Shown here piece by piece: positions 91 through 24,166 of a stretch of 46,530 nucleotides of DNA. Numbering within the stretch: position 1 is the first letter of the stretch; every line of letters begins with the position of its first letter. The translations under genes were made by a program, and so were the position numbers. Source of the stretch: Candidatus Hydrogenedentota bacterium (lineage in GTDB: Bacteria; Hydrogenedentota; Hydrogenedentia; Hydrogenedentales; SLHB01); assembly GCA_029552745.1 (NCBI GenBank), contig JAKPDK010000185.1, positions 1-46,530 on the forward strand. The letters are read 5' to 3'. Below the pieces are notes generated by a model, which was not told the DNA's origin, searched no databases, and saw nothing but the letters and a program-made list of their open reading frames with translations.

Positions 91-115
91 TCTTTTCCCT
101 TACTGCGCCCTATAC

Positions 116-988
116 TTATGATTCAAGGCACCGCCAAGCATGCGGCATAGCATCGAGAAGATCTCTGGCCAGCATGGCACGGCCGGTCATTCTTTCCGCG
201 GCGAGGTCGCCCGCCAAACCATGCACATACACCCCCAATACAGCAGCGTTGACCATGCTTACTCCCTGCGCCATCAATCCGCCGATAATGCCGGAAAGCA
301 CATCACCCGTGCCACCGGACGCCATTCCTGGATTGCCCGTTGGATTACAAAACAATGCCCCGTCAGGCGTCGCAATGATAGTCTGTCGTCCTTTTAACAC
401 AACCACACAATTAAACTGTTGAGCAAAATGAGCAGCGGTCCCCGCACGATCGCCTTGAACGCTGGATGTAGAGATGCGTAAAAGCCGAGCCATCTCCCCC
501 GGATGCGGTGTAAGACAACTCGAACCTTTTCTTTCCCTCAATACATCCGGGTTTTCACTTAGACAATTTAGTCCATCCGCATCAATCAAAAGCGGCTTCG
601 GGCATTCTTTTACAAATCTCAAGACAAAATCCGTTGTTGCCGGTGTGCGTGACAAACCGGGTCCTAACACAACCGCCTGTTTTGTGCTCGCAAATTCAAG
701 TGCTGGAGAGAGTGCACCGACGGAAAGAGTATCCCCAGATGTCGCCGGAAGTGGAAACCACATCGCTTCAAGCAAGAAAGGAACGATGCAGGGCGCAAGC
801 GATTCCGGAAATCCCACGGTCACCAAGCCCACCCCTGAGCGCAGGGCTCCTTCACACGCTAGCTTCGGCGCGCCTGTAAATCCTCTTGAGCCCGCAATGA
901 TGAAGACGTGCCCAAAAGTGCCCTTATGCGCATCCAGAGGTCTCTCCGGTAACAAACTTGCCACGTATTCCTTAGTAACGCCTTGCAT
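116..988 (-). CDS. nnrD: ADP-dependent NAD(P)H-hydrate dehydratase (single-domain)
   Basis: This enzyme repairs hydrated NAD(P)H (NADHX/NADPHX) with ADP as energy source. The 290-residue protein is a complete ribokinase-like YjeF C-terminal domain. It has HKGTFGHVFIIAGSRGFTGA near residues 21-40, VLGPGLSRT near 106, the LLIDADGLN strand near 133, LTPHPGEMARLL near 159 and the nucleotide/catalytic loop GMASGGTGDVLSGIIGGL near 222-239, whose Asp is the catalytic base in the family. The N-terminal NnrE epimerase domain found in many bacterial fusions is absent. A GAGGA ribosome-binding site lies about 10 nt before the ATG. Two overlapping TATAAT hexamers on the minus strand at 1044-1054 could be its -10, but no good -35 accompanies them. 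thiL follows downstream. Confidence 0.93.
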   Translation of the reverse strand: MQGVTKEYVASLLPERPLDAHKGTFGHVFIIAGSRGFTGAPKLACEGALRSGVGLVTVGFPESLAPCIVPFLLEAMWFPLPATSGDTLSVGALSPALEFASTKQAVVLGPGLSRTPATTDFVLRFVKECPKPLLIDADGLNCLSENPDVLRERKGSSCLTPHPGEMARLLRISTSSVQGDRAGTAAHFAQQFNCVVVLKGRQTIIATPDGALFCNPTGNPGMASGGTGDVLSGIIGGLMAQGVSMVNAAVLGVYVHGLAGDLAAERMTGRAMLARDLLDAMPHAWRCLES

Positions 989-1143
989 AGACTAGGCTTC
1001 CTCAACGGTTAACAAACATATATGGCATCTCTACCAGCATGTTATTATATTATACGAACGTCTTCACGTTTTTGAGCGTCGAGCCATACCGGAAAAATAC
1101 GGGTGCGAGACTGAAAACGAACTTAACAACGGGAATCATCTCT

Positions 1144-2397
1144 ATGATGGAAATGTTTGAGCCTATCATGCCGCAAAACGAGAATGCACTTTGCCCGCAC
1201 TTTGGGATGTGCGGCGGCTGTTCGTTACAAGACAAAAAATATGAGGAGCAAATTCGAGTTAAAGAGAAACATCTCGAGACCCTATTGAAGCCGCACAACT
1301 TATATCCACGATCTATCCTTTCTTCACCGATAATATGGGGATACCGCAACCGGGTGGATTTCAACTTTGGCAGACGGTTTTATGACACGCCCCCGCCAAA
1401 AGAGTTCGATCGAGAAACCGTTTTAGGCTTCCGTCGAAAAAATCGCTGGTTTCATCTGATTGACATTTCCAAATGCCTGATTGGACCCTCTTTGACACCC
1501 ACCTTGCTTGAAACCGTGCGCTGCTGGGCGCGCGAAACAGGACTCAAAGGCTATGACAGCCGAACTCATCAGGGCACACTAAAACTGCTTCTTGTACGCG
1601 AAAGCAAAAGACTCAATGAGAAGATGGTGGTACTCGTGACGGGCGAAGACGTGCCCCGTTTGGAAGAATTCCGCGACGCTGTGCTGACGGTCTACCCCGC
1701 AACCAGCATTCACCACGCAGTCTCGAACAGCCGCGCCAATGTGGCGTTCGCAGAAACCACGACGTTGTTACATGGCAAACCCTATATCTCAGAACAATTC
1801 CAGATCCCTAAAGTAGCTGGAGAACGAAGGATCCAGATTCGAGTCACTCCTTTCGGCTTCCTTCAGTCGAACACATTCGTGGCAGAAATCTTGTACGCTC
1901 TTGTTCGTAACTGGGTAGAGTCGTTTGCCTTTACCCGACTCTATGACCTCTATGGCGGTAACGGTGCAATCGGCCTGGCCTGCGCTGACCTTGTCGAGCA
2001 CATCGTGACTGTCGAAAGTATGCCGGACTCCATTACGGCTCGCAGAGAAACAGCGGCAGATAACGGTGTGACACACATAGATTTCGTACAATCTAAAGTG
2101 GAGGATTATCTCCGAGATTTTTATGAAAAAGGCAACAAGTTTACTCCAGATGATATCGTAATCGTGGATCCGCCCCGAGCGGGTTTGCATCCTAAGGCAT
2201 TGAAGTATCTGATGCACCTCGCGCCTGATTATTTCATCTATATATCTTGTAAACCGGAAGTATTATGTCAACAAGACCTGCCTACCTTGTTGACTCAGTA
2301 CAAACTCATTGACATGGAGGCGTTGGACATGTTCCCGCACACTCCGCATGTTGAACTAGCGCTCCTGTTCAGAAAGAAATCGGAATATGACGATTAG
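1144..2397 (+). CDS. 23S rRNA (uracil-5-)-methyltransferase, RlmC/RlmD (TrmA) family
   Basis: SAM-dependent RNA methyltransferase that makes 5-methyluridine. From the ATG at 1144 it has 417 residues. Cysteines C17, C23, C26 (in CPHFGMCGGC) and C111 fit the [4Fe-4S] cluster ligands of the RlmC/RlmD group. The SAM site is LYDLYGGNGAIGLAC near 267-280. VDPPRAGLHP near 341 and ISCKPEVL near 367 form the catalytic region, with C369 as the nucleophile. No N-terminal TRAM domain is visible, as in RlmC, but the exact target uridine cannot be assigned. The frame stays open up to an ATG at 1039. The 1144 start is preferred because family homology begins just after it and the upstream residues look non-coding. 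Confidence 0.88.
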   Translation: MMEMFEPIMPQNENALCPHFGMCGGCSLQDKKYEEQIRVKEKHLETLLKPHNLYPRSILSSPIIWGYRNRVDFNFGRRFYDTPPPKEFDRETVLGFRRKNRWFHLIDISKCLIGPSLTPTLLETVRCWARETGLKGYDSRTHQGTLKLLLVRESKRLNEKMVVLVTGEDVPRLEEFRDAVLTVYPATSIHHAVSNSRANVAFAETTTLLHGKPYISEQFQIPKVAGERRIQIRVTPFGFLQSNTFVAEILYALVRNWVESFAFTRLYDLYGGNGAIGLACADLVEHIVTVESMPDSITARRETAADNGVTHIDFVQSKVEDYLRDFYEKGNKFTPDDIVIVDPPRAGLHPKALKYLMHLAPDYFIYISCKPEVLCQQDLPTLLTQYKLIDMEALDMFPHTPHVELALLFRKKSEYDD

Positions 2398-2430
2398 CCA
2401 AAATACGTGGGTCTCATGGACCGCTGATCT

Positions 2431-2772
2431 ATGACATTTGTGCGCATTGCAAATACAGCTGATTTTGATGGAAAACGATTTCGACGATACACCTTGCTGG
2501 CAAAAAAACTAGCAATTTTCAAAGAGCCCGACGGAACCTACTATGCCATCGAGATCGCTTGTAAACACCAAAACTGGGACTTAACCACGGGCAGAATCGA
2601 GGGAGATATTGCCACGTGCCCTCGCCACGGCTGGGTCTACAACATCAAGACCGGCGAATGTTTATCGCATAGCTCTGCGCCATTACGACGGTACACGGTC
2701 AAAGTGGAAGGTGATGAAATTTGGGTGTCACTCTCTCCAATCGAAACAGAGCAACGTCACGAAAACCATTAA
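2431..2772 (+). CDS. Rieske [2Fe-2S] ferredoxin-like protein
   Basis: A 113-residue single-domain Rieske protein. The cluster ligands are visible as C44-x-H46 and C63-x2-H66 (ACKH ... CPRHGW), separated by 16 residues, which is the normal NirD/ferredoxin-component arrangement. There is no signal peptide or membrane anchor, so it is cytosolic and probably an electron-transfer partner. The 33-bp gap after the methyltransferase suggests co-transcription, but no partner oxygenase is adjacent. Its stop codon overlaps the stop of the convergent CPBP-like gene by 3 nt, so no room remains for a separate terminator. Confidence 0.88.
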   Translation: MTFVRIANTADFDGKRFRRYTLLAKKLAIFKEPDGTYYAIEIACKHQNWDLTTGRIEGDIATCPRHGWVYNIKTGECLSHSSAPLRRYTVKVEGDEIWVSLSPIETEQRHENH

Positions 2773-3530
2773 AGGACCAGCATAAAGAGCAAAAGCTCCA
2801 TTTCAATTAGAAAATGGACGGTAAATGCGGGAAGCATGTTACGACGTTTCAACGTCCACCAACAAAGAATGATGGAAAGGAAAACCATCCCCAGCATTTC
2901 CAGCGGATGTTTTGTCAAGTGGTACACGCCCTCGACCAAGGGTACGATTAGCCACCCCCATTTCGGGAAAACGTCAGTGGCATGTTTCAGCAGCACATAC
3001 CGGTGCAAGAATTCCCAACCAACAATCCAGGAAAGCGTATAGAAAAATGTATGATAGGCAACTCTCCACTTGTCAACAACGGTAGCATTTCCTAAGGCTG
3101 GGTAATAACTGCGCAACCCGGGAATGAATGAAATCGTTGCGACTGCCAACACTCCCAAAAAAGCAAAGCAAAACAGAACATAGAAATCGGCTTTCTTGAG
3201 ACGCCGAATGCCAAAATACCCCCAATCCATTGTAGGCGAAACGATAATAAAAGGTATCACAAACCATCCAGCAAACTTGAAAATGTCCATACCGAGTAAG
3301 GGATACAGTATGGTGCCTCTTTCGGATGAAACTCGGATGGGAGCTTCTTCAAATACAATCCAACGAAAAAAAGTCCAGTTAAAAGGCTTCTTAACCCCAA
3401 GAATAGACAGCGTGTCTATAGAATGGACAACCACAACATAAAGAAGAAGAAATACGAAAAAAAGAAGCCTTCGTTTGTTCCCGGATGCATCGCGGAGACT
3501 AGTCTCAGCCTTCATGTGCTCTTCTGCCAT
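2769..3530 (-). CDS. CPBP-family-like membrane protein (degenerate Abi/CAAX protease motifs)
   Basis: A 253-residue protein with about six to seven hydrophobic segments. The C-terminal half resembles the CPBP intramembrane protease (Abi/CAAX) family: WEFLHRYVL near 170 corresponds to the first motif, EGVYHLTKH to the second, and VHFLIEM to the third HxxxN/D motif. The first Glu of the usual EExxxR is replaced by Trp and the last motif ends in Glu, so activity is uncertain. It is the last gene of the minus-strand parA-to-nth run and starts 15 bp after nth. An in-frame ATG at 3515 is an alternative start. It could be a non-proteolytic relative with a bacteriocin-immunity-like or unknown role. 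Confidence 0.6.
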   Translation of the reverse strand: MAEEHMKAETSLRDASGNKRRLLFFVFLLLYVVVVHSIDTLSILGVKKPFNWTFFRWIVFEEAPIRVSSERGTILYPLLGMDIFKFAGWFVIPFIIVSPTMDWGYFGIRRLKKADFYVLFCFAFLGVLAVATISFIPGLRSYYPALGNATVVDKWRVAYHTFFYTLSWIVGWEFLHRYVLLKHATDVFPKWGWLIVPLVEGVYHLTKHPLEMLGMVFLSIILCWWTLKRRNMLPAFTVHFLIEMELLLFMLVL

Positions 3531-3545
3531 GAAACCGCCGTGTTT

Positions 3546-4235
3546 CTATTTCGTCTTCGGGTTTTTTCGTGTCTGACTTGGCTTGTCAGGAAAAGGACAC
3601 ATATCTTTAACGACACACTCTTGGCACTTGGGCGACCGAGCGAGGCAGACGGATCTGCCGTGAAAAACCAACGTGTGAGAATAAGTCCCCCAATGTTCCC
3701 GGGGCCAGAGCTTCATAAGATCTTCTTCAATCTTAACTGGGTCTTCTTCTTTCGTAAATCCGAGACGTCTTGCTAAACGAGCACAATGAGTATCTACAAT
3801 AATTCCCGGGACGCCAAAACATTCGTTCAACAAAACATTCGCCGTCTTCCGGCCCACCCCATCTAACGACACTAACGAATCCATGTCCCCGGGAACCTGA
3901 CCTCCGAAGCGTTCCAAGATAGCTTTGCAAGCCCGCTGAATGCAGCGCGCCTTGTTTCGGTAAAACCCACACGAACGGATATCTTCCTCCAATTCCGTCA
4001 CATCGACGGCTACATAGTCTTCTGGAGTCTTATACTTTTGAAAAAGCGCAGGGGTAACTTGATTCACCCGTTCATCCGTGCATTGGGCGGCTAGGATTGT
4101 CGCCACGAGCAGTTCTAAAGGGTTTTTGTAGTTCAACGTACATCGAGCCTTAGGGTAAATGCTTCTCAGGCGTTCCATTACCTCAATACAGCGCGCCCGT
4201 TTATCTATCGCCTCGCTCTTTTTGCGCACAGCCAT
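3546..4235 (-). CDS. nth: Endonuclease III (DNA glycosylase/AP lyase)
   Basis: Base-excision repair enzyme that removes oxidised pyrimidines and cleaves the abasic site. The 229 residues contain the helix-hairpin-helix LDGVGRKTANVLL with catalytic K130, the catalytic Asp D148 in IIVDTHCARL, and a complete [4Fe-4S] loop C197-x6-C204-x2-C207-x5-C213. Length is normal for the family. Its start lies inside the last codons of polX, a 31-nt overlap, so translation is probably coupled to the repair polymerase that would fill the gap it creates. CPBP-like membrane protein follows 15 bp downstream. Confidence 0.96.
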   Translation of the reverse strand: MAVRKKSEAIDKRARCIEVMERLRSIYPKARCTLNYKNPLELLVATILAAQCTDERVNQVTPALFQKYKTPEDYVAVDVTELEEDIRSCGFYRNKARCIQRACKAILERFGGQVPGDMDSLVSLDGVGRKTANVLLNECFGVPGIIVDTHCARLARRLGFTKEEDPVKIEEDLMKLWPREHWGTYSHTLVFHGRSVCLARSPKCQECVVKDMCPFPDKPSQTRKNPKTK

Positions 4236-5920
4236 CGCTCTAATTCCTCAACTGTCCAACAATTTAAAATATCACGGGCTTCCAACCAGCCCTTCCGTGC
4301 AATACCCACGCCATAATCAATGTCGTTAAGTGCCTCTGCATTGTGTGCATCCGGAGAAATACAAAATCGAACTCCCTTTTCTTTTCCCCTTCGGATGTGC
4401 CGCCAATCCATGTCCAACCGGTGGGGATTCGCATTAATTTCCACAGCAACGTCATGCTCCACGCAGGCGTCAAAAACCCTTTCCATGTCCAAAGGGTACC
4501 CCTCCCGAGACAAAAGCAATCGACCAGTCGGATGTCCCAATACGGCCGTATAAGGATTCTCGATTGCCTTAATGACCCGAGAAGTCGCTTCTTCCATTGT
4601 CATGTTCAGTTTGGTATGTATGGAAGCAATCACAATTTCAAACACAGACAACACGTCTTCGGAATAGTCCAGACTACCGTCTGCTCGAATGTCCGATTCT
4701 ATACCATGGAAGACCCGAAAGGACTTAAGTTTCTTGTTGACCGCGGCAATTTCTTTCGCCTGTTCCGCTACAGCACTTTCTGAGAGTCCCCCAGCGTAAC
4801 CCGCGGACTTGCTGTGATCCGCGATAACAATATACCGAAAGCCTCTTTTTACGGCGGCTTGTGCCATTTCTTCGACCGAAGCAATGCCGTCGCTGTACGA
4901 CGTGTGACAATGGAAAACGCCCAAAAGATCAGACCGCTCCACAAGACGAGGCAGATCGCTGACTTCCAGTTCCCCCATGTCTTCCCTCAATTCGGGTGGT
5001 ATAAAGGGCAGATCTAACTGTGCAAAAATCTCCGCCTCGTCCTTGCAGAGAATATTCTCATCTCCTCGAAACAGTCCATATTCATTCATCTTAAGCCCGC
5101 GGTCTTTCGCTCGCTGCCGCATAGCGATATTGTGTTCCTTGCTACCAGTAAAATGATGAAGCGCGTAAGGAAACTCCAAATCCGATACAACGCGAAGGTC
5201 GGCGTTAATGCCCGACTTCAGCATAATACTCGACTTCGTGTCGCCGCGCGCTACCACTTTTTCTACTGCCTCAAAGGATACAAATCGTTCCATCAAAGAC
5301 GTCGAATCACGCGCAGAAGCAACGATATCAATATCCTTAACTACCTCTTTACGTCGCCGTAGACTGCCAGCGATTTCGATACGAATAAGACCTTTCTCTT
5401 TTTTCAAATGCTCGAGTAAACAACTCGCCGCTTCGTACGCCGTGCTAAATAGGTGCAAACCTCGTCCCCGTTTAAGGAAAGCTATACCTTCCAAAACGTT
5501 CTTTTGGATCTTGGGTCCAAAACGGTTCAGCGTCAAAAGGCGATTCTCGTTACACGCATATTCCAGCTCCCCGAGTGAAGAAATCCCCAGCTCCTCGTAA
5601 AGCGTCTTTATACGTTTTGCACCGAGTCCAGGAATCGCGAACAGTTCCAGCAACGTCTCCGGAAACTTGGAGCGAAGAGCTTCCAGGTATGACAGCCGCC
5701 CGGTGTTGACTAACTCCGTTATTTTTTCCTCGAGTGCCTCCCCCACTCCCTTGATCGTTCTTAAACGTTTCTCCGCCACGAGTACTTCTATCGGCTCTTC
5801 GAGTTGTTCAATTTGGCGGGCAACATTACTGTAAGACCGAGCTTTAAACGGATTCTCCCCTGCGAGTTCCAGCAAGACAGCGATTTCATCCAAAACTGCT
5901 GCGATTTCCTTGTTATTCAT
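4205..5920 (-). CDS. polX: Family X DNA polymerase with C-terminal PHP domain
   Basis: A 571-residue bacterial PolX for gap filling in DNA repair. Residues 1-150 hold the 8-kDa and fingers region with two helix-hairpin-helix motifs (IKGVGEALE near 56, IPGLGAKRI near 96). The palm nucleotidyltransferase motif GSLRRRKEVVKDIDIV starts at 185 with metal ligands D196 and D198, and D241 in INADLRV is the third acidic residue. The PHP phosphoesterase/3'-5' exonuclease domain occupies 333-571, starting FHCHTSYSDG (H337, H339, D344). It continues with ADHSKS, HGIESD, ASIHTK, LGHPTGR and SPDAHN metal motifs. Both active sites look intact. It overlaps nth downstream and follows serS by 112 bp. Confidence 0.95.
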   Translation of the reverse strand: MNNKEIAAVLDEIAVLLELAGENPFKARSYSNVARQIEQLEEPIEVLVAEKRLRTIKGVGEALEEKITELVNTGRLSYLEALRSKFPETLLELFAIPGLGAKRIKTLYEELGISSLGELEYACNENRLLTLNRFGPKIQKNVLEGIAFLKRGRGLHLFSTAYEAASCLLEHLKKEKGLIRIEIAGSLRRRKEVVKDIDIVASARDSTSLMERFVSFEAVEKVVARGDTKSSIMLKSGINADLRVVSDLEFPYALHHFTGSKEHNIAMRQRAKDRGLKMNEYGLFRGDENILCKDEAEIFAQLDLPFIPPELREDMGELEVSDLPRLVERSDLLGVFHCHTSYSDGIASVEEMAQAAVKRGFRYIVIADHSKSAGYAGGLSESAVAEQAKEIAAVNKKLKSFRVFHGIESDIRADGSLDYSEDVLSVFEIVIASIHTKLNMTMEEATSRVIKAIENPYTAVLGHPTGRLLLSREGYPLDMERVFDACVEHDVAVEINANPHRLDMDWRHIRRGKEKGVRFCISPDAHNAEALNDIDYGVGIARKGWLEARDILNCWTVEELERWLCAKRARR

Positions 5921-6032
5921 AGACCAACCTGTACAAAGGATGACCTTTTCGCGCCACGTTGAGAGCCTTGCTGCTTACGACTCGCGTACCCAGGGGTTTC
6001 TTTGTAAAACAACGACCGCTCGAAACGAAAAT

Positions 6033-7307
6033 CTATGCAACCTTTTCGATACGTTCCAGGCCATCAACAAAAGGTCGCAATGCCTGCGGAATAACCACGG
6101 AGCCGTCCGCCTGCTGATAATTCTCCAGTAGAGCTATCAATGTACGACCAACGGCGAGACCAGAACCGTTTAGGGTATGGACATACTCGGGCTTTTTATT
6201 TCTGCGGAAACGTATGTTTGCACGACGCGCTTGGAAATCCGTGCAGTTCGAACAGGAACTTATTTCTCGATACCGATTCTGCCCAGGCAACCAAACTTCA
6301 ATGTCGTAAGTCTTTGCAGATGCAAACCCCATATCACCGGTGGAAAGACACACGACGCGGTACGGCAATTCCAACCGCTGGAGAATACTCTCCGCATCCC
6401 TCGTCAACTTCTCCAGCTCTTCCCATGACTGTTCCGGCGTGGTGAACTTGAATAATTCCACTTTGTGAAACTGATGTTGCCGCATCATCCCCCGCGTGTC
6501 TTTCCCATAGGACCCGGCTTCACTACGAAAACATGGGGTATACGCAGTGTAATACAACGGCAGGTCGTCTTCCTCGAGGATCTCATCCCGGTGCATGTTG
6601 GTGAGAGGCACCTCCGCCGTAGGCACCAGCCATAAGTCACGATTACTCAGGGAAAATGCCTCTTCTGCAAATTTGGGTAGCTGTCCCGAACCCTCCATCG
6701 TCTGCGAAGATACCAGATACGGAGGCATGATCTCCGTATATCCGTGTTCCCGCGTATGAACGTGGAGCATGAAATTAATCAACCCTCGCTTGACGCGGGC
6801 GCCCACCCCCTTCAAAAGACTGAAACGTGCCCCTGAAAGCCGGGCGGCACGTTCAAAATCAATCACATCCAAATTCGTACCAATCTCGACATGGTCTTTG
6901 GGTTCAAAATCAAACGTACGAGGTTCCCCCCACGTCCGCACGACTTGGTTTGCCGTCTCATCCAACCCTATTGGCACCGAGGTATGTGGAATGTTGGGCA
7001 CAACCAATAACAAATCGCGTAAGCGTTGGTCGGTCTCTTGCACCTTATCTTCCAATTCCTTAATGCGTTCCCGCAGCTTACGCATGGCTTCAATCGCGTC
7101 CGAGGCGTCTTCTTTTGCCTTTTTCTTCGTAGCGATTTCAGCGGAGACCTTATTTTGTTCCGCTTTTAACTGTTCGCACTCATACAATAACTCCCGACGC
7201 ATGCGATCAAGAGACAATATGGGTTCAATGTCCAGCGGATTGTTGCGGTTTTTCAGGGACTCTCTAATGAGTTCAGGGGATTCCCGAAATAGTTTAATAT
7301 CTATCAT
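6033..7307 (-). CDS. serS: Seryl-tRNA synthetase
   Basis: Class II aminoacyl-tRNA synthetase that charges tRNA-Ser, such as the one encoded at 34649. The 424 residues start with a long N-terminal antiparallel coiled coil (about 30-105) that binds the tRNA long variable arm. Motif 2 [14 protein letters not shown] lies near 262 and motif 3 [16 protein letters not shown] near 379. It is normal length and has no visible frameshift. It sits 40 bp downstream of parB in the same direction, so it may be read from the parA promoter. No T-box leader is seen in the short gap. Confidence 0.97.
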
Positions 7308-7347
7308 TTAGAATGCTTTCCTTTCCATATCTAAAACCAAATAAGTC

Positions 7348-8229
7348 CTAACGACGAAACAACGCCAGTATCCTGTCCAAATCATCCAACGAATAATATT
7401 CAATCGTAATGCTCCCGCGCGCCTTACCTTGTACCCTAACGGAAACCTTGGTCCCAATTCGTTTCCGCAACTCTTCCTCTATTGCAAGAAGATTCGGGTC
7501 CTTATCCTGTTGTTTGGAAACTTTGTGACGAGCAGTTGCCAGCCGTTCGGTTTCTCGAACCGAAAGGCCCTTTTCCAAAACCTTCCTGCACGCGCTGCGC
7601 TGAGCATCGGCACTCGGCAAAGCCAGCAGGGCGCGCGCATGCCCCATAGAAAGCTCTCCATCAGCGACATGCCGCTGCACGTCCTCGGGAAGATGGAGCA
7701 ATCGTAACAGGTTCGTTACACTTACACGACTTTTTCCAACCTGCCGAGCAAGCTCATCTTGTGTCCAATGAAACTCTTCCAGTAATTTTTGATAGGCTTT
7801 GGCTAGCTCTATCGCATTGAGGTCCTCACGCTGCACATTCTCAATAATGCCAAGCCGCAGCATATCCGCATCAGAAACATCTCGCACAATGGCGGGCACC
7901 GTCGGCAAATCCGCCATAATAGCCGCCCGTACACGCCGCTCGCCGGTTACTAATTCATACTTATTGTTCCGTCGACGGACAATCACTGGTTCCTGAACAC
8001 CGTCTCTCCGAATAGAGTCGGCGAGTTCCTGCAATGATTCTTCACGAAACGACAAGCGCGGCTGCTGCGGGTTCGGATCGATTTCTCTCGGGTCCAGCTG
8101 GATGATACGTTCGCCTTGGCTCAACGGTTCCGAAGCCGCCGCCGTGCCTTTTTCTGCTTTCGGAATGGGGGAAAGCAACGCTTCCAAGCCTTTCCCCAAT
8201 ACTTTTTTCTTCGTGTCAGCCACGGGCAA
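7348..8229 (-). CDS. parB: Chromosome-partitioning protein ParB
   Basis: CTP-dependent centromere-binding clamp of chromosome segregation, 293 residues. The N-terminal nuclease-like domain has GERRVRAA, the CTP-binding motif, near 96-103, and ENVQREDLN near 135. The helix-turn-helix parS reader follows (about 150-200, DELARQVGKSRVSVTNLLRL), then a linker and a C-terminal dimerisation domain. Its start overlaps the end of parA by 14 nt, indicating translational coupling. No full parS palindrome is visible in this window. Confidence 0.96.
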   Translation of the reverse strand: MPVADTKKKVLGKGLEALLSPIPKAEKGTAAASEPLSQGERIIQLDPREIDPNPQQPRLSFREESLQELADSIRRDGVQEPVIVRRRNNKYELVTGERRVRAAIMADLPTVPAIVRDVSDADMLRLGIIENVQREDLNAIELAKAYQKLLEEFHWTQDELARQVGKSRVSVTNLLRLLHLPEDVQRHVADGELSMGHARALLALPSADAQRSACRKVLEKGLSVRETERLATARHKVSKQQDKDPNLLAIEEELRKRIGTKVSVRVQGKARGSITIEYYSLDDLDRILALFRR

Positions 8230-8977
8230 CTACCTCTCGTGTGAGCGCCAAATATGCCTTGGCACCAGAAGATTTGAGATCATAATATATCACGGGTTGG
8301 CCGAAACTTGGCGCCTCAGCCAGCGTCACATTCCTTGGGATTACTGTTTCATAAACCTTGTCGCCTAAATGCGCTCGGACGTTGTCCATCACCTGATTTG
8401 CCAGGTTGGTGTGTTGGTACATAGTGAAAACCACACCATTCAATTCCAGTCGCGGATTGAGTGTATCATGGACGAGTTGAATGGTGTTCAATAGCTCACT
8501 CAAACCCTCTAAAGCATAATACTCGCACTGTAAGGTGACCAGCACCCCGTCAGAAGCAGCCAACGCATTTAAGGTCAATAGGTTAAGTGCTGGAGGGCAA
8601 TCAATGTAGACCGAATCGTACTCTTCACGAACAGCTTGCAAGGCGTCTCGCAAACGATACTCACGGCCTTCCAAATCCACCAGTTCGACCAGGGCACCCA
8701 CCAAGTTCTTATTTGCCGGTATCAAATGGAGACGATCAACGCCCGTATCCGTGACCACATCGCGTATAGGTAGCGCCCCCAACAAGACTTCGTAAACTGT
8801 TTTCGAACAAGTATTTTTGTCGATACCTAAACCGCTGGTAGCGTTACCTTGAGGGTCTAAGTCGATTAACAACACACGCCGCCCCGCGGCCGCCATACAG
8901 GCACTTAAATTGACCGCGGTGGTCGTTTTGCCTACTCCTCCTTTCTGGTTGGCTATGGCAATAACACGTCCCTGCAC
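8216..8977 (-). CDS. parA: Chromosome-partitioning ATPase ParA (Soj)
   Basis: Deviant Walker ATPase that moves ParB-parS complexes, 253 residues. The P-loop NQKGGVGKTTTAVNL near 9-23 has the signature Lys, LLIDLDPQGNAT near 36 is the Walker A' segment, and VYIDCPPALN near 120 is Walker B. There is no N-terminal regulatory HTH, as in chromosomal Soj types. The start codon is GTG at 8977. A strong sigma-70-like promoter lies about 78 bp upstream. Neighbours are serS and DNA repair genes rather than the more usual rsmG/mnmG. Confidence 0.96.
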   Translation of the reverse strand: MQGRVIAIANQKGGVGKTTTAVNLSACMAAAGRRVLLIDLDPQGNATSGLGIDKNTCSKTVYEVLLGALPIRDVVTDTGVDRLHLIPANKNLVGALVELVDLEGREYRLRDALQAVREEYDSVYIDCPPALNLLTLNALAASDGVLVTLQCEYYALEGLSELLNTIQLVHDTLNPRLELNGVVFTMYQHTNLANQVMDNVRAHLGDKVYETVIPRNVTLAEAPSFGQPVIYYDLKSSGAKAYLALTREVVARG

Positions 8978-9054
8978 TTATTCGTCGATGCCTCTTAAGC
9001 TAAAAATAGAAATAATCCCAAGTGCGTGGTCAGATATCTTCGGAACAAGGTGCT

Positions 9055-9084
9055 ATGATACGAACCGCGGCGAATATAAGTCAA
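9055..9084 (-). promoter_or_regulatory. Candidate sigma-70 promoter for parA-parB-serS
   Basis: On the minus strand, -35 TTGACT (9079-9084) and -10 TATCAT (9055-9060) are separated by 18 bp. Both hexamers match the consensus at five of six positions. The predicted start of transcription is about 70 nt before the parA GTG. On the opposite strand the same -10 region reads TGCTATGAT, an extended -10, so promoter activity may be bidirectional. Confidence 0.5.
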
Positions 9085-9106
9085 TCGAATGCATCGAAGC
9101 GGTGAT

Positions 9107-9135
9107 TTGACATTCCTTAAAATGAACTCCAAAAT
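9107..9135 (+). promoter_or_regulatory. Candidate sigma-70 promoter for fabI operon
   Basis: A perfect -35 TTGACA (9107-9112), a 17-bp spacer and CAAAAT (9130-9135) as -10 lie about 50 bp upstream of the fabI ATG. A GAGGA ribosome-binding site at 9171-9175 precedes the ATG by 9 nt. The -10 is only a four-of-six match. Confidence 0.45.
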
Positions 9136-9184
9136 CTCACTACTTCTATTTACGAAACCATGCAACAGACGAGGATAAAAACTT

Positions 9185-10009
9185 ATGTTATCTGGCAAAA
9201 GAGGCGTCGTTTTGGGAGTGGCAAATGAACGGTCTATTGCCTGGGGCTGCGCCAAAGCATGCGCAGAACACGGCGCCTGTTTAGCATTCACCTATCTCGG
9301 TGATGCACAAAAAAAACGAGTCAGCCGATTGATCGAAAGTGAACTTCCCGGTTCTCTCCTGTTTCCGTGTGATGTCGCCCGAGATGAGGACATTATTTCC
9401 CTTTTCTCATCCATCGCGGATGCCTGGGGGACTCTAGACTTTGTTATTCATTCTGTGGCATTTGCCCACAGAGAAGACTTGGGCGGCGCTTTTGTAAAGA
9501 CCCCTCGCTCGAATTTTTTGCTCGCACTCGACATTTCCGCGTATTCGTTCGTGGCGGTGGCGCGTGAAGCCTCCCGACTTATGACCCAAGGCGGGGCAAT
9601 CGTCACCATGAGTTATTTCGGCGCGGAAAAAGTCGTCCCCCGTTATAATGTCATGGGCGTGGCGAAAGCAGCCCTAGAAGCTTGTGTACGCTATCTCGCT
9701 TACGACCTTGGGCCTGCGGGGATCCGCGTGAATTGCGTAAGCGCAGGACCTATCCGAACGTTGTCGTCATCCGCAATTCCAGGCATGAAACACATGTTGG
9801 ATATCGTCGAGAAATGGGCACCTCTTCAACGAAACGTCACCCAAGAAGAAGTGGGAAGAACGACGGCTTTTCTTGTATCCGACTTGTCTGCTGGAATCAC
9901 GGGTGAGGTGATTCATGTGGACTCTGGCTATAACATTCTTGGATTCACTGCGTTGGGTGAAGAGGGCAAAGAGAATGCGCGTCCAGATGAAAATGGAGCT
10001 GCCTCATGA
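9185..10009 (+). CDS. fabI: Enoyl-[acyl-carrier-protein] reductase (NADH)
   Basis: Last step of each fatty-acid elongation cycle in type II synthesis. The 274-residue SDR protein carries the FabI-type NAD loop GVANERSIAWG near 11-21. It has the MSYFGAEKV segment with Y144 and the catalytic Y154-x6-K161 in RYNVMGVAKAALEACVRYLA, very like classical FabI. The C-terminus has a short charged extension of about 20 residues. It heads a four-gene operon and overlaps the next gene by the ATGA of stop and start. The association with a kinase and a glycosyltransferase rather than with other fab genes is unusual. Confidence 0.95.
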   Translation: MLSGKRGVVLGVANERSIAWGCAKACAEHGACLAFTYLGDAQKKRVSRLIESELPGSLLFPCDVARDEDIISLFSSIADAWGTLDFVIHSVAFAHREDLGGAFVKTPRSNFLLALDISAYSFVAVAREASRLMTQGGAIVTMSYFGAEKVVPRYNVMGVAKAALEACVRYLAYDLGPAGIRVNCVSAGPIRTLSSSAIPGMKHMLDIVEKWAPLQRNVTQEEVGRTTAFLVSDLSAGITGEVIHVDSGYNILGFTALGEEGKENARPDENGAAS

Positions 10010-17442: not shown

Positions 17443-18240
17443 ATGATCATTGATGCTCATACACATATTCATCAAGATGTAGACGGATTAGGAACAAAAT
17501 ACGACGCGCGGATTGATCACTTGCTACAGGCTATGGACCAGGCGGGCGTAACCAAAGCCATCGTTATGGCTGAAGAGGTGGACGTCCCTTATATAAAGCG
17601 AATTAGTAACGAGTTCGTTGCCGAAATCTGTGCGAAACATGAAAACCGTCTCATAGGGTTTGCCTCGGTTCACCCCGGTGACCCAGACGCTCCACGACAG
17701 TTAGAATACGCTTTAGACACCTTGGGACTAAAAGGTCTGAAACTCCATCCGAGGTTTCAGGGCATTGCCGCAGATGATCCACGATGCGTGGAACTGGTGC
17801 AAATAGCAACTTCCCGAAATGTTCCCTGTGCAGTCGACGCTTTTCTGTGGAAACCTTACCCTTTACGCGTTCAGCTTCCTTTGAACATCGACTCGTTGTG
17901 CAAACAAGTCCCAGATGCACGGATCATCATGAACCATGCCGGAGGTTTCCATTTTCTGGATGCCCTAGCCGTCGCAATTGCAAACGACCATGTCTACTTG
18001 GAGCTGTCGGTCACACTCCCCTTCTTTGCCGGCACCCCTTTTGAAGAACAATTCTTATTCGTGCTGAAACAGCTTGGACCTCGGCGTCTTATCTTCGGCT
18101 CGGATCATCCTCAAAAAAGTTTGCCGGTAGTGCTCCAGACCACCCGGGATATGCTTGGAAAGGCAGGGTTCTCCGAAGAGGATGCCCAATGGGTATTAGG
18201 CAAAAATGTCATGAACCTGCTTGGAAATGAAGAATCCTGA
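17443..18240 (+). CDS. Metal-dependent amidohydrolase (Amidohydro_2, TIM barrel)
   Basis: A 265-residue cytosolic TIM-barrel hydrolase. IDAHTHIH at the N-terminus provides the HxH metal ligands (H6, H8), KGLKLHPRF near 92-100 the next ligand region, MNHAGGFHF near 164 another His, and IFGSDHPQ near 216 the conserved catalytic Asp. The family includes decarboxylases and amide or lactone hydrolases, so the reaction is open. Only 5 nt separate it from the ATP-grasp gene, and GAGGT precedes its own start. Together with the ligase and aldolase it forms a likely three-enzyme pathway. Confidence 0.85.
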   Translation: MIIDAHTHIHQDVDGLGTKYDARIDHLLQAMDQAGVTKAIVMAEEVDVPYIKRISNEFVAEICAKHENRLIGFASVHPGDPDAPRQLEYALDTLGLKGLKLHPRFQGIAADDPRCVELVQIATSRNVPCAVDAFLWKPYPLRVQLPLNIDSLCKQVPDARIIMNHAGGFHFLDALAVAIANDHVYLELSVTLPFFAGTPFEEQFLFVLKQLGPRRLIFGSDHPQKSLPVVLQTTRDMLGKAGFSEEDAQWVLGKNVMNLLGNEES

Positions 18241-18245
18241 TTGTC

Positions 18246-19448
18246 ATGGACGAAACGATACTTATCGCAGGCGCTGGCCAAAACCAAATCAGCATTATAC
18301 GTAAAGCAAAGTCGTTAGGCTTTCGGACGGTCGCCGTAGATGGCTTCCCAGACGCCCCCGGGTTGCCCTTCGCTGACGAAAAAGTTGTCGCTGACATACG
18401 AAATCCAGAAGTCATACTTGCCGTTGCTGAAAACGTCAAAGCTACCGCTGTCTATCCTGCCGCAGAACACGCGGTAGAAGCCTGTGCCCACGCGACGTCT
18501 CGCTTAAACCTCCCCGGTGTATTGCCTGAAGTGGCGCATCGGGTTCGGAACAAATTTGCGATGCGGGAAGCCCTTGCCGCCAGGGAGGGATTCAATCCCA
18601 GATATATTTGTGTGGAGACGCTACAGGAAGCGCGCCACGCCGCCCAAATGATCGGATTTCCGGTGATTGTGAAACCTGTGGACGGAAATGCCAGCCGCGG
18701 TGTCCGCAGAGTTGAGTCACCGGGAGATCTCAACGAAGCTTTTGGGCTTGCCTCTCAAGTCTCTAACAAAGGTGCCGTGTTGATTGAAAGTTACCTGGAG
18801 GGTGAAGAATACAACGTGGACGGTTTGGTATTTAATGGACGATATATTCCAGGTGCGGTGACCGGCAAAATACGCTCTCCACTACCCTATAGATACGATG
18901 AAGCCATTTTTACGCCCGGCGCGGACCCTGAACTTGAGGACCGGATTTTCAGTACTGTCGCGTCAGCGCTACAGTGTATTGGCTTTTCGCTCGGTACAAC
19001 CCATATCGAAGTTATTGTCACGCCTAAGAATGTTTATATCGTTGAAATGGCGGGTAGACCGGGTGGGGGGCGTATTCCAAGCGACCTGATTCCTTTAGCA
19101 TACGGCATGGATTACTTGGCAGACAGCCTCCGCATTGCAGCGGGGAAACAACCGACGTCCAAAAGGTTGTTCCGAAAAGGCAGCGTGCTTTTATGGTTAA
19201 AGGCAAAGCCCGGAATCGTGCGGGAAATCCGTGGAGTGGAACAGGCTGCGGCTGTGCCGGGCGTTCACGATATTTGGCTGCAAGCTTCAGAAGGCAAAAC
19301 CATACCTCGCGTTGTCGATTGTGCAACCCGCGACAAGATCGGGTATGTTATAGCTGCTGGAAATACGGTGGATGAAGCTTTTTCTGCAGCACACCGTGCC
19401 GCAGAGAAAATCGAGATCATCACGACGGCAGAGCACGTCCCAATATAG
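18246..19448 (+). CDS. ATP-grasp carboxylate-amine/thiol ligase
   Basis: A 400-residue ATP-grasp enzyme. A Rossmann-like pre-ATP-grasp domain (1-105, starting DETILIAGAGQNQ) is followed by the ATP-binding lobes. Their motifs are GFPVIVKPVDGNASRGVRRV near 138, LIESYLEGEEYNVDGLV near 179, and the magnesium-binding HIEVIVT...YIVEMAGRPGGGR near 258-280. A C-terminal subdomain of about 100 residues completes it. The order of domains is that of PurT/carbamoyl-phosphate-like and L-amino-acid ligases, which join a carboxylate to an amine through an acyl phosphate. Substrates are unknown. It lies between the amidohydrolase and the aldolase fusion. Confidence 0.85.
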   Translation: MDETILIAGAGQNQISIIRKAKSLGFRTVAVDGFPDAPGLPFADEKVVADIRNPEVILAVAENVKATAVYPAAEHAVEACAHATSRLNLPGVLPEVAHRVRNKFAMREALAAREGFNPRYICVETLQEARHAAQMIGFPVIVKPVDGNASRGVRRVESPGDLNEAFGLASQVSNKGAVLIESYLEGEEYNVDGLVFNGRYIPGAVTGKIRSPLPYRYDEAIFTPGADPELEDRIFSTVASALQCIGFSLGTTHIEVIVTPKNVYIVEMAGRPGGGRIPSDLIPLAYGMDYLADSLRIAAGKQPTSKRLFRKGSVLLWLKAKPGIVREIRGVEQAAAVPGVHDIWLQASEGKTIPRVVDCATRDKIGYVIAAGNTVDEAFSAAHRAAEKIEIITTAEHVPI

Positions 19449-19482
19449 CTTACCCGTCTTGGGTTGAACAGTAGGACGCGAA

Positions 19483-21534
19483 ATGACGACGACTTTTGGT
19501 TCAGAGCCGTTCATTTTGGATTGCACCCTTCGAGACGGGTCGTATGCCATTGATTTCCAATTCACTTCTGATGACACCGCTCTGATTGTCTCTGCTCTGG
19601 ATTCTGCCGGGATAAGACACATTGAAGTCGGACATGGACTTGGACTCGGGGCAAGCCGTAAAGGCAAGGGGCAAGCCGCTGCTTCGGACGAGGACTACAT
19701 CCGGAGCGCCACACGGGCGGCAATCTATGCAAAAATCGCCGTCTTCTTCATCCCGGGCATCGGGACCGAAGACGATATTCGAATGGCTGCAGACCTTGGC
19801 CTTGCCGTCCTTCGGATAGGGACCGATATCGTTCAATCAGAATCGTCCGAACCCTTTGTCCGCGTCGCAAAACGTTGCAACCTGCTGGTTTGTTGTAATT
19901 TCATGAAATCCTATGCGGTGACCCCGGAAGAATTCGCACAACGCGCAAAGAAGGCAGAGGATTGGGGAGCAGATGTCGTCTATCTTGTTGACTCAGCTGG
20001 TGGCATGCTGCCCGAAGAAATTGCCGAGTATCTTGCCTGCACCAGAAGCCTTTCCAAGATATCCTTGGGGTTTCACGGTCATGACAACTTACGAATGGCG
20101 TTGGCAAATACGTTGGCGGCATACGAAGCCGGTGCCGTCGCATTGGACGCTTCTTTACAGGGCATGGGAAGGTCGGAAGGGAACTGTCCTACTGAGGTTC
20201 TGGCGGCGGTTTTGCAGAAAAAGGGTGTATTGGCAACATTAAACGTGGATAGTCTGCTCGACATCGGGGACGCATTTATCGCGCCCTTGGCATTTTCTAG
20301 TAAACCTTCTCCGCTGGGTGTAACTGCTGGAAGAGCCCAGTTCCATTCTTCGTTTTTGACCACCGCGATGGAAGTCGCACACCGTTTCAATCTGAATGTA
20401 CGACAGCTCATCTTAGCCCTGGGCGACCAAGGCAAACTCACGGTCTCGCGTGACATCTTAGAACAAAAAGCCGAACAACTTATCGGAAGAAAAGAAGCCC
20501 GCTTCTGGCACGTTGTCTTCGAGAACGATAAAACCGGAACAACCGCATCTTTAACCGAACAAGCACGTGACTTGTGTCACAAACTTCGTTCTGAAGCCAA
20601 AAAGAAAGGTCTGCCGTCTGTTCTCAATGTGGTGCTGAGTTCGTACGAACCCTCTCATGTGTCCCCTTACGTAGAAAGCTCTTTCGGTTGCGCCATTTCG
20701 AACGTCATGGTCGAAACACCACAACTCGGCAACGAGATCTTGAATGCATGCGATAGTATAGTCGATTTTTTCTTAATCGATTTGCAGGGAAACCTAATTC
20801 CAAGGTATTCAGACTATAAAAGCGGTTTGCTTATGTACAGCGACCCGACCATGTGGTGTCACGCCGTCGTCTCGCAAATCGGCGCCATTCTTGGTCCCTG
20901 CCTGACGGGCACGTGCATTGTAGTTCTCGGTGATCAAGTCCTTTCCGCGATAGTGGCAAGGCTTCTCATGGAACATGGCGCCGATGTAGCAACCAAGACG
21001 CCCTTGCCTCAAAACTTGCCCGATAGGACACATGGGAGAACTTACCGCGTGGAAGAGGTTACAACGCGCGCAGAGTGCGTCGTCGGTATGTCGCAGAGAA
21101 AGCCATGTATTTACCGTGAACTTGTGGAACAATTAGCTCCAAACACCTTAATCTTCGACGGCGGCATAGGCTCTATCCACGCCGACGCGCTTGCTGTCAG
21201 CAGAGAAAAAGGCCTAAGAGTTGTTCGAGTGGATTTGCGCCCTACCTTAGCGGCAAAAGCGCTGGAACTCATAGGAATGAAAAAAGTGGTCAATGCCCAC
21301 ATGGGACGAGCCGTTTGGGAGGAAATACCTGTTGTTGCCGGAGGCATTATCGGTAACGCCGGCGATATAATCGTTGACAGCATTACCTCCCCGACGAGAA
21401 TAATCGGCGTAGCCGACGGATATGGAGGTATAACAGCGGCTGACCCAAATGATGACCGCGTGAGGACAATAAGGAAAGTGATTGCTTTACACCTGTTAGG
21501 CGAGAAAAAACTGCCACCGAAAGAACAAAGTTAG
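19483..21534 (+). CDS. DmpG/HMGL-like aldolase fused to a Rossmann dehydrogenase-like domain
   Basis: A 683-residue two-part protein. Residues 8-310 form a DRE-TIM barrel of the HMG-CoA-lyase/4-hydroxy-2-oxovalerate aldolase type. CTLRDGS has the catalytic Arg-Asp at 17-18, LGFHGHDN supplies the metal His pair H198 and H200, and DASLQGMGRSEGN near 222 matches the DmpG glycine loop. After a helical link the C-terminal 330 residues are unlike the DmpG communication domain. They contain a beta-alpha-beta unit starting CIVVLGDQVLSAIVARLL near 478 and IFDGGIGSI-like loops, resembling a FolD/shikimate-dehydrogenase layout. The aldolase partner DmpF is not encoded nearby. The second function is not recognised. 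Confidence 0.72.
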   Translation: MTTTFGSEPFILDCTLRDGSYAIDFQFTSDDTALIVSALDSAGIRHIEVGHGLGLGASRKGKGQAAASDEDYIRSATRAAIYAKIAVFFIPGIGTEDDIRMAADLGLAVLRIGTDIVQSESSEPFVRVAKRCNLLVCCNFMKSYAVTPEEFAQRAKKAEDWGADVVYLVDSAGGMLPEEIAEYLACTRSLSKISLGFHGHDNLRMALANTLAAYEAGAVALDASLQGMGRSEGNCPTEVLAAVLQKKGVLATLNVDSLLDIGDAFIAPLAFSSKPSPLGVTAGRAQFHSSFLTTAMEVAHRFNLNVRQLILALGDQGKLTVSRDILEQKAEQLIGRKEARFWHVVFENDKTGTTASLTEQARDLCHKLRSEAKKKGLPSVLNVVLSSYEPSHVSPYVESSFGCAISNVMVETPQLGNEILNACDSIVDFFLIDLQGNLIPRYSDYKSGLLMYSDPTMWCHAVVSQIGAILGPCLTGTCIVVLGDQVLSAIVARLLMEHGADVATKTPLPQNLPDRTHGRTYRVEEVTTRAECVVGMSQRKPCIYRELVEQLAPNTLIFDGGIGSIHADALAVSREKGLRVVRVDLRPTLAAKALELIGMKKVVNAHMGRAVWEEIPVVAGGIIGNAGDIIVDSITSPTRIIGVADGYGGITAADPNDDRVRTIRKVIALHLLGEKKLPPKEQS

Positions 21535-21577
21535 TATGTCCGGTATGTAGAAAACATCCCCTTTGGGAGAGGATTTC

Positions 21578-22573
21578 ATGAACGGCAACTCCGACAGTGA
21601 ACTTTTATCTCATCCGTACATTTCTGTTTTAATTCCCGTTTTCAATGAAGAACCGAACCTGGAAGAACTGTATAAGCGCCTGAAACAAGCCCTGGACCTA
21701 TACGGCAAATCCTATGAACTGCTGTTCATCGATGACGGCAGCACGGACAACTCCTATGAAGTTCTCCGATGGCTTCACTCAAGCGATTCGAAGGTGCGTG
21801 CCATAAAATTCGCGCGTAATTTCGGACAACAGATGGCGATCGCCGCTGGCCTGAAATACTCCCGAGGAGATGTCGTCGTGCTTATCGATGCTGACCTACA
21901 AACCATGCCGGAAGAAATCCCAAAACTTGTGGATAAGCTGCTCGAAGGCTACGACATTGTCTATGGTATTCGGCAACGCCGAAAAGACCCTTTGCTTCGT
22001 CGCATAGGGTCGTGGTGTATGTCGCATCTTCTCTATCGCATCACCAATATCGAGATTCCGGACAGTGCCAGCGGTTTCCTAGCCCTGAATCGAACGTTCG
22101 TAGATTCCATCAATCTGTTCAATGAAAAATCTAAATATTTCAGCGGGCTTTTCGCTTGGCTAAGTTATGGGCGCTGGGGGTCGGTCCCCGTGACGCATGC
22201 CCCCCGCCGCGCTGGCGTGTCTAAATACTCCATTCCAAAGCTGATTGGATTGACGCTCAACTTCGTCTGCAATTTCACCACACTGCCTTTGCGCTTCGCT
22301 TTCTACACAGGGGGAGTTTTGGCGACGATAGGCGGTGGTGCTTTCGCTGCGATCCTTGCATTGCGCTTGTTAGGGATATTAGGTAGGTTACCTGCGGTTG
22401 AAACTCTTGGTGCTTTGATAATTCTGTGCACGGGATTGCAAATTTTTTTCATCGGGATTGTAGGAGAGTATCTTGGCAGAGTCTATGTCGAAGTCAAGGA
22501 AAGACCGCCCTACGTCGTGAAAGAAGTATTGGACGCACAAGTAAGTGGTTCGCACGACTACGCTGGGAACTGA
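21578..22573 (+). CDS. Polyprenyl-phosphate-type glycosyltransferase (GT2, DPM1/GtrB/ArnC-like)
   Basis: Transfers a sugar from a nucleotide donor to a lipid phosphate at the inner membrane. From the ATG at 21578, with GGGAGAGGA just upstream, it has 331 residues. The GT-A domain shows VLIPVFNEEPNLEEL, the FIDDGSTDNS strand, LIDADLQ as the DxD motif and RRAGVSKYS, which is characteristic of this family. Two hydrophobic helices at the C-terminus (about 235-310) form the membrane module. A TTG at 21563 is a poorer start. It follows the aldolase fusion by about 43 bp and precedes the ceramidase-like gene by 15 bp. Confidence 0.9.
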   Translation: MNGNSDSELLSHPYISVLIPVFNEEPNLEELYKRLKQALDLYGKSYELLFIDDGSTDNSYEVLRWLHSSDSKVRAIKFARNFGQQMAIAAGLKYSRGDVVVLIDADLQTMPEEIPKLVDKLLEGYDIVYGIRQRRKDPLLRRIGSWCMSHLLYRITNIEIPDSASGFLALNRTFVDSINLFNEKSKYFSGLFAWLSYGRWGSVPVTHAPRRAGVSKYSIPKLIGLTLNFVCNFTTLPLRFAFYTGGVLATIGGGAFAAILALRLLGILGRLPAVETLGALIILCTGLQIFFIGIVGEYLGRVYVEVKERPPYVVKEVLDAQVSGSHDYAGN

Positions 22574-22588
22574 ATTGGAGAGAGGTTT

Positions 22589-24166
22589 ATGACACAATTT
22601 CTGGGAAAACACAAGATCCTTACAGCCATCACGCTTCTCGTTCTCTTGTTGTTTATTTTCGCTGCCTATCGTATGAAAGGACCCTACCGGTCTTACCACA
22701 TTGACTTCGTTTTGCCACAACAGAATACGACCGCGCCCGGCGTGTTGGAAGTGGGTGTAGCGATGAGGAAAATCACGCCGGACTTGACGCAATACGATTC
22801 CTGGACGGACGCTGATAATGACGCCCACTACAATCCACGAAAAGGAGACTCCTACCAGGACCGTAACAGCAATGGGCGATTCGACGCCGTGTGGTTGGCC
22901 GGTTTTTCGAATAATCGCCCTGCCAAAGGTGTACACGATGATCTGTGGGTTCGCTCTATCGCTCTTCGAAACAATGGCGTTACCTTGGTTATGACCACCA
23001 TTGACAGCATCGGGATTTTTCATGAGAAGTTCATTCGGGTACGAAAAATGTTAGACCCAACGCTTCATATAGACCATGCGATGTTCTCTTCCATTCACGA
23101 TCATGAAGCGCCGGACACCATGGGAATTTGGAGTTATAGCCCCTTCCGCCCGTTATTTGACCATCAGTACATGGAACAAGTAATTCAAGCTTGCAAGGAA
23201 TCAACAGAAGAAGCGGTACGCAATTTGCAGCCTGCAGAAATGATCTGTGCCGAAGTGAAAATTGATCCCAAGGGACTCGTAAAGGATACGCGCGCCCCCC
23301 AGTGCTTTGATCGCAGCCTCTGCGCCATGTGGTTTCGAAATCCCACGACCCAAGCGACCATTGCAACCTTAGTTTCCTGGGGTAACCATCCCGAAGCGCT
23401 TGGCAGCCGAAATAGTCTCATAACTGCAGATTTTGTACACTATCTCCGACAGGGACTGGAAGACGGTGTCCCCGATCCGAATGGAATAGAGGGCTTCGGA
23501 GGGATGTGCCTATACTTTCAGGGGAGCCTGGGCGGTTTAATGACACCGCTCCATCTTGAGGTGCCACACCGAGATGGCGTCGGAGTATTTAAAGACGACA
23601 GTTTCCAAAAAGCTCAAGCGCTGGGCGAAAACGTGGCTATTCTCGTCGGAAAAGCGTTGCGCTCGGATGCCGCATGGAAAAACGAAAACCCCAGACTACG
23701 CGTTGCGGCTAAGACAATTTACGCACCCATGGCGGGCCTATATAAATACGCCATCATGCTGGGGCTGATACACCCGGGTTATTACTGGGGTGGGAAAGCT
23801 CGAACAGAAGTTAATGCGTTTCGGATCGGCGATGTGGAAATACTCACCTGTCCCGGGGAACTCTATCCGGAGATAGCGGAAGGAAAAGCAGAAGCTCCGC
23901 CAGGAAACGATTTCAATCTATCTGCACCGTTGGAAGTGCCCGGACTACGACAGGTGATGAAAGGGAAAATGAACCTCGTTATCAATCTTGCAAATGACGA
24001 GATTGGTTACATCATCCCGAAAAGCCAATGGGACACAAAACCCCCGTTCACCTATGGCCGCGACAGCGCCCCCTACGGCGAGGAAAACTCCGGTGGGTTT
24101 GATGTGGCGCCAACTTACCACCGAGAGGCATTGGCGTTACTAGAGCGTCTACACCAAAACAATTAA
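22589..24166 (+). CDS. Membrane-anchored neutral/alkaline ceramidase-like hydrolase
   Basis: A 525-residue protein with a single N-terminal hydrophobic helix (about 9-27) and an outward-facing catalytic part. GVAMRKITPDLT near 56, the SSIHDHEAPDT segment with H170 and H172, and SWGNHPEALGSRNSLITADF near 265 resemble the zinc-site regions of the neutral/alkaline non-lysosomal ceramidase N-terminal domain. Residues 74-99 (DADNDAHYN ... DRNSNGRFD) look like calcium-binding loops. The C-terminal Ig-like ceramidase domain is not evident. The hydrolysed bond is probably an amide in a lipid-like substrate, but this is inference. It follows the glycosyltransferase by 15 bp, suggesting a linked role. 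Confidence 0.7.
   Translation: MTQFLGKHKILTAITLLVLLLFIFAAYRMKGPYRSYHIDFVLPQQNTTAPGVLEVGVAMRKITPDLTQYDSWTDADNDAHYNPRKGDSYQDRNSNGRFDAVWLAGFSNNRPAKGVHDDLWVRSIALRNNGVTLVMTTIDSIGIFHEKFIRVRKMLDPTLHIDHAMFSSIHDHEAPDTMGIWSYSPFRPLFDHQYMEQVIQACKESTEEAVRNLQPAEMICAEVKIDPKGLVKDTRAPQCFDRSLCAMWFRNPTTQATIATLVSWGNHPEALGSRNSLITADFVHYLRQGLEDGVPDPNGIEGFGGMCLYFQGSLGGLMTPLHLEVPHRDGVGVFKDDSFQKAQALGENVAILVGKALRSDAAWKNENPRLRVAAKTIYAPMAGLYKYAIMLGLIHPGYYWGGKARTEVNAFRIGDVEILTCPGELYPEIAEGKAEAPPGNDFNLSAPLEVPGLRQVMKGKMNLVINLANDEIGYIIPKSQWDTKPPFTYGRDSAPYGEENSGGFDVAPTYHREALALLERLHQNN

Follow-up and report, generated by a model that had tools for sequence, protein, structure and literature searches.

A recurrent aldolase-Rossmann fusion gene and its amidohydrolase, ATP-grasp and glycosyltransferase partners in Hydrogenedentota: a candidate glycan-tailoring module

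Five consecutive genes on a contig of Candidatus Hydrogenedentota bacterium (JAKPDK010000185.1; the window, meaning the whole stretch of 46,530 nucleotides analysed) encode an amidohydrolase, an ATP-grasp ligase, a DmpG-like aldolase fused to a Rossmann-type unit (the fusion), a membrane family 2 glycosyltransferase (GT2) and a ceramidase-like hydrolase (Table 1), raising the question of whether they serve one pathway and what that pathway would make. An earlier interpretation (the sequence-only reading) had all five making an acyl or amino group, ligating it and transferring a sugar to a lipid, with hydrolysis at the membrane. Its description of five same-direction genes is borne out by the open reading frames (ORFs), all on the + strand with intergenic gaps of 5, 34, 43 and 15 bp, and no terminator-like stem was found in any + strand gap between them in a promoter/terminator scan that was otherwise uninformative. 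Comparative analysis revealed that the first three genes, together with GT2 in Hydrogenedentota, are evolutionarily linked. These four genes are read here, with a probability of about 0.5, as a glycan-tailoring module in which an acid made by aldol chemistry would be amide-linked to a surface-glycan amino sugar; to this extent the earlier scheme of making a group, ligating it and linking it to a glycan or lipid is retained, on the strength of co-occurrence and surface-glycan loci.

Among 68 Hydrogenedentota genomes, the fusion was present in 10 and a close amidohydrolase homologue in 10, with both in nine (hypergeometric p = 2e-9). The window's own family (25 of these genomes), which partly controls for kinship, has nine fusions and nine amidohydrolases, eight of them together (p = 7e-5), and the association holds even where the genes are unlinked. 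ATP-grasp orthologues (≥48% identity) were identified in seven genomes, every one fusion-bearing, and GT2 homologues (≥46%) in nine of the ten fusion genomes plus a few lacking the fusion, both cutoffs having been set after the scores were seen. The order of all five genes is repeated in G013 and that of the first four in G005, while shorter runs comprise fusion-GT2 (G014), amidohydrolase-GT2 (G016 and G022) and amidohydrolase-ATP-grasp-GT2 (G015); overall, GT2 adjoins the fusion, ATP-grasp or amidohydrolase gene in at least seven genomes. Since module gene order recurs in other genomes, where the genes overlap, the neighbourhood is more than chance. A fortuitous grouping of unrelated genes, for which the unlinked partners in some fusion genomes (e.g. 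G016, G022 and G004) might be cited, is hardly credible, as the partners are still present in such genomes and the trio is found together in more than one phylum.

The G013 fusion gene (L034, C474, about 1770–1986) contains one in-frame TAA near its start, reflecting an assembly error or a pseudogene. In addition to the full module, G013 carries a second amidohydrolase and ATP-grasp pair (C8, L110) beside radical SAM and ComB genes. In G005 a PMT_2/GT39-type membrane glycosyltransferase is encoded two genes past the module GT2 (L032, 5146–6567), and could be the user of the lipid-linked sugar that GT2 would make.

Outside the phylum, full-length fusion homologues were identified in two Desulfobacterales. 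A GTDB scan with two short peptide patterns, whose 10 loci are a lower bound as it missed the second of these (G275), found the fusion in one Desulfobacterales genome (G068), in an operon of class I aminotransferase, amidohydrolase, fusion, RraA-like and ATP-grasp genes in a row with 4-bp overlaps (32%, 37% and 29% identity to the window for amidohydrolase, fusion and ATP-grasp, respectively). In G275 the fusion and ATP-grasp genes also overlap by 4 bp, beside DegT, AsnB (asparagine synthase) and epimerase genes and an O-antigen-type ABC-2 exporter. A wider search of Desulfobacterota revealed aldolases of this subfamily that are not fused. One of these (G453, 36% identity to the window) lies with ATP-grasp (26%) and amidohydrolase (27%) genes in a NeuB locus that also holds cytidylyltransferase, PseB-type dehydratase and PIG-L deacetylase genes, and another (G397) lies in a further NeuB locus, with an AMP-dependent ligase where ATP-grasp would stand. 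Viral contigs searched with the G275 C-terminal unit gave no matches, and plasmids yielded ordinary dmpG only, with no record spanning 80% of the fusion. The sequence-only reading had named conserved neighbourhoods of the fusion as its check, and the partners do co-occur and recur across phyla, the ceramidase-like gene excepted.

That gene has homologues in 60 of the 68 Hydrogenedentota genomes, with or without the fusion and, elsewhere, on other contigs, and shows no association with the fusion (p = 0.44); because of this distribution it was dropped from the module, and the membership given to it earlier is abandoned. A single lipid-linked pathway of all five genes, to which the identical order in the window and G013 would point, is very unlikely for the same reason. 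The protein is ~50–65% identical across most Hydrogenedentota, often in several copies, a phylum-typical enzyme, and scores 22.7 bits against PF04734 (Ceramidase_alk), under the gathering score of 32.1. Two further candidates that adjoin module genes in several genomes, a ComB-type phosphatase (61/68) and a SPASM radical SAM gene (57/68), were likewise dropped as phylum-wide. ComB-type (2-phosphosulfolactate phosphatase) followed by the SPASM gene is a conserved pair in several Hydrogenedentota (G000 contig C78, 8361–10249, L127; also L100, L103 and L110).

The fusion itself is real, as had been claimed, with a DmpG-like part (residues 1–340) followed by a part whose profile matches NAD-domain folds (~350–683). 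The aldolase part matches Pfam HMGL-like (2e-35) and the broader subfamily NF006049 (298 vs a cutoff of 229) but falls below the TIGR03217 (DmpG) equivalog cutoff (276.5 vs 286). In common with DmpG/BphI, which act with DmpF, it has an HMGL TIM barrel, Arg17/Asp18 and an HxH metal site (the pyruvate/metal-site residues R17, D18, H198 and H200 being conserved as in DmpG) and is joined to a Rossmann-type unit; the Desulfobacterales fusions also have a DmpG_comm-like tail, as in DmpG/BphI. In the HOA aldolase family a histidine acts as catalytic base. Alignment with solved or annotated HOA aldolases revealed that the window protein has Tyr21 and His288 where most reference DmpG proteins have His21 and Tyr291, that the same exchange is seen in all readable subfamily members, fused or not, that the subfamily motif is of GxGRSxGN type rather than the reference GxGAGAGN, and that the GGQED motif is lost. 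Position 21 alone is not diagnostic, because one Rhodococcus protein annotated as dmpG also lacks His21. A tree parts the reference DmpGs from the Tyr/His group, with weakly supported deep branches and two long rows. Judged by its sequence, the aldolase is a distinct, DmpG-like subfamily and not a standard 4-hydroxy-2-oxovalerate aldolase. At the equivalent position, Tyr290 of BphI controls C4 stereochemistry and restricts that enzyme to the (4S) enantiomer (PMC3962088), so the swapped pair carries a clear stereochemical prediction, and with the pair inverted the opposite C4 stereochemistry is possible.

The DmpG-like fold and metal ligands would also suit a catabolic pathway of meta-cleavage type, in which the amidohydrolase would serve as a decarboxylase or hydratase (ring-cleavage-pathway enzymes of both kinds belong to Amidohydro_2) and the aldolase would cleave a 4-hydroxy-2-oxo acid, releasing an aldehyde for the Rossmann unit to oxidise, after the pattern of DmpG/DmpF; the LigK/RraA-like gene of the G068 operon fits as well. 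We consider this improbable: ring-cleavage genes were not found, the acylating acetaldehyde dehydrogenase DmpF is absent from the fusion C-terminus and the adjacent genes scanned, the C-terminal unit fits no aldehyde dehydrogenase family, the active-site His/Tyr pair is altered, and such a pathway has no place for ATP-grasp or GT2. The loci, moreover, are of glycan rather than catabolic type.

Separately, two loci (L012 of G038, 3–3566; L140 of G399, 1782–9942) hold a thiamine pyrophosphate (TPP) enzyme, a DmpF-like acetaldehyde dehydrogenase and a DmpG-like aldolase together with nucleotide-sugar genes, which suggests that the DmpF/DmpG pair is used there biosynthetically and not catabolically.

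Residues ~350–683 of the window fusion alone match no Pfam family. A profile of nine homologues of this C-terminal unit matches S-adenosylhomocysteine (SAH) hydrolase and dipicolinate synthase A (DpaA), the latter being the best match (E 2.9e-7) of a profile limited to the Rossmann core. An AlphaFold2 model of the unit (predicted local distance difference test, pLDDT, 83) aligns with DpaA at Z 14.3 over 135 residues (3.1 Å), with PHGDH and SAHH close behind (Z 12–14 across the three); the full-length model was of modest confidence (pLDDT 71; predicted template modelling score 0.48). As modelled, the unit has a Rossmann fold like that of DpaA and the SAH hydrolase NAD domain, from which it differs in its low identity and attached aldolase and in the GxGxxG dinucleotide-binding motif, which is degenerate, the first glycine alone being invariant. 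DGGxGS, RxDxR, MG, AGG and ADG are also invariant. Of the earlier 'aldolase-dehydrogenase' label, the first half stands; the second is unproven, with no aldehyde dehydrogenase family match, and is the weakest point of the mechanism because the nucleotide-binding loop keeps its first glycine only. The check proposed earlier, prediction of structures and active sites, yielded the modelled fold, the retained R17, D18, H198 and H200 and the degenerate glycine motif.

By family criteria (domains above cutoff and conserved Lys/Glu/Arg) the second gene is predicted to encode an ATP-grasp ligase, with K143, E181, E255, E267 and R271 showing no variation among module homologues. The ATP-grasp_4 plus LAL_C2 architecture and the conserved catalytic residues are shared with ATP-grasp L-amino-acid ligases (LAL) of the BL00235 and BacD type, from which the module ligase differs in that its relatives sit in glycan loci. 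A soluble small-molecule or dipeptide pathway, in which a non-standard amino or hydroxy acid produced by the fusion is turned into a dipeptide-like metabolite by a LAL-type enzyme and GT2 is incidental, would accommodate the LAL_C2 domain, the BacD/L-amino-acid-ligase matches and the class I aminotransferase upstream of the G068 module. We regard it as unlikely, though less so than the catabolic pathway, given the repeated surface-glycan contexts and GT2 adjacency; nonribosomal peptide synthetase, transporter and resistance genes were not seen with the module. A family-level parallel for glycan tailoring is found in the Shewanella oneidensis flagellin-modification operon sfmABCDE, which bears NeuB and encodes the ATP-grasp_4 protein SfmE (PMC3765264); surface-glycan decoration there involves a TPP enzyme and a reductase, in contrast to the aldolase-Rossmann fusion and amidohydrolase of the module.

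GT2 resembles ArnC, PgfS and sll0501 in its fold and C-terminal membrane helices (structure-database matches in PDB: sll0501, 1e-60; ArnC, 3e-60), but falls below two equivalog cutoffs, scoring 212 where 529 is required (211.8 for ArnC, NF007986) and 204 where 500 is. In the amidohydrolase, H8, K100, H102, H165, E201 and D221 are invariant in eight module homologues, Desulfobacterota included.

From the observed linkage and the O-antigen and nonulosonic-acid contexts we infer each step and substrate of the tailoring route. The aldolase domain would couple an aldehyde with a pyruvate-type enolate, or cleave the product, giving an unusual hydroxy or oxo acid, which would pass to the fused Rossmann unit, perhaps to be oxidised or reduced. 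The amidohydrolase may trim the acid or its precursor by decarboxylation, lactone opening, hydration or deacylation. As is typical of its family, the ATP-grasp enzyme would activate the acid by converting it to an acyl phosphate and couple it through an amide bond to an amino group, most likely that of an amino sugar carried on a nucleotide or a lipid. In Hydrogenedentota, GT2 would, again by family, transfer a sugar to undecaprenyl phosphate, either before or after its decoration, for use on the outer surface; the presence of GT2 suggests that these bacteria use that carrier. Nonulosonic acids carry varied N-acyl groups. Hydrogenedentota are predicted to make lipopolysaccharide (PMC11406978).

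Besides the choice of cutoffs for ATP-grasp and GT2, several observations weigh against the glycan-tailoring module. Some genomes have the fusion without the ligase alongside; G052 (94% complete) has the fusion and no close ATP-grasp homologue, and G015, which is only 66% complete, has amidohydrolase, ATP-grasp and GT2 and no fusion. NeuB, O-antigen exporter and nucleotide-sugar genes were not seen in the 46.5-kb window, in which about half of the ORFs were scanned.

Table 1 Genes and fusion domains of the Hydrogenedentota locus.
Feature	Coordinates	Strand	Remarks
Amidohydrolase gene	17443..18240	+	Amidohydro_2 (ACMSD-type TIM barrel) metallo-enzyme, 265 aa; PF04909 E 4.7e-27
ATP-grasp carboxylate-amine ligase gene	18246..19448	+	400 aa; ATP-grasp_4 3e-16, LAL_C2 2e-15
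Fusion gene, DmpG-like aldolase + Rossmann-type C-terminal unit	19483..21534	+	683 aa; PRK08195 298 bits
Fusion: aldolase domain, residues 1–340	19483..20502	+	R17, D18, H198, H200 kept; Tyr21/His288
Fusion: C-terminal unit, residues 350–683	20530..21531	+	Small leading domain, then Rossmann core
Membrane GT2, ArnC/PgfS/sll0501-like polyprenyl-phosphate glycosyltransferase	21578..22573	+	331 aa; PF00535 1.2e-32
Ceramidase-like hydrolase, N-anchored	22589..24166	+	525 aa; neighbour, probably outside module

The GT2 ORF starts at 21563 or 21578, and the 43-bp gap assumes the ATG at 21578, with GGGAGAGG just before it. The five genes are preceded by a prolyl-tRNA synthetase gene and followed by genes for a 217-aa protein without a Pfam match and an ADP-ribosylglycohydrolase.

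No named pathway with this gene set was found, in agreement with the sequence-only reading, and the literature searched, mostly open-access, contained no description of the fusion or of the combination as a pathway; no mention of aldolases was found in the Hydrogenedentota literature checked. Each constituent family is already known, while the fusion seems undescribed. More tentatively than the module itself, the fusion may be a new enzyme type, in which a pyruvate-family aldolase with an inverted His/Tyr pair, possibly of opposite C4 stereochemistry, is combined with a DpaA-like Rossmann unit processing the aldol product, supplying a previously unknown acyl group that ATP-grasp would attach to lipid- or nucleotide-linked amino sugars. 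The module spans phyla and pairs this aldolase subfamily with an ATP-grasp ligase, and TLRDGSY...FHSS provides a marker for finding further examples. Bacterial surface sugars bear many acyl groups without an assigned biosynthetic source, for which an aldolase plus ATP-grasp module would be a testable route.

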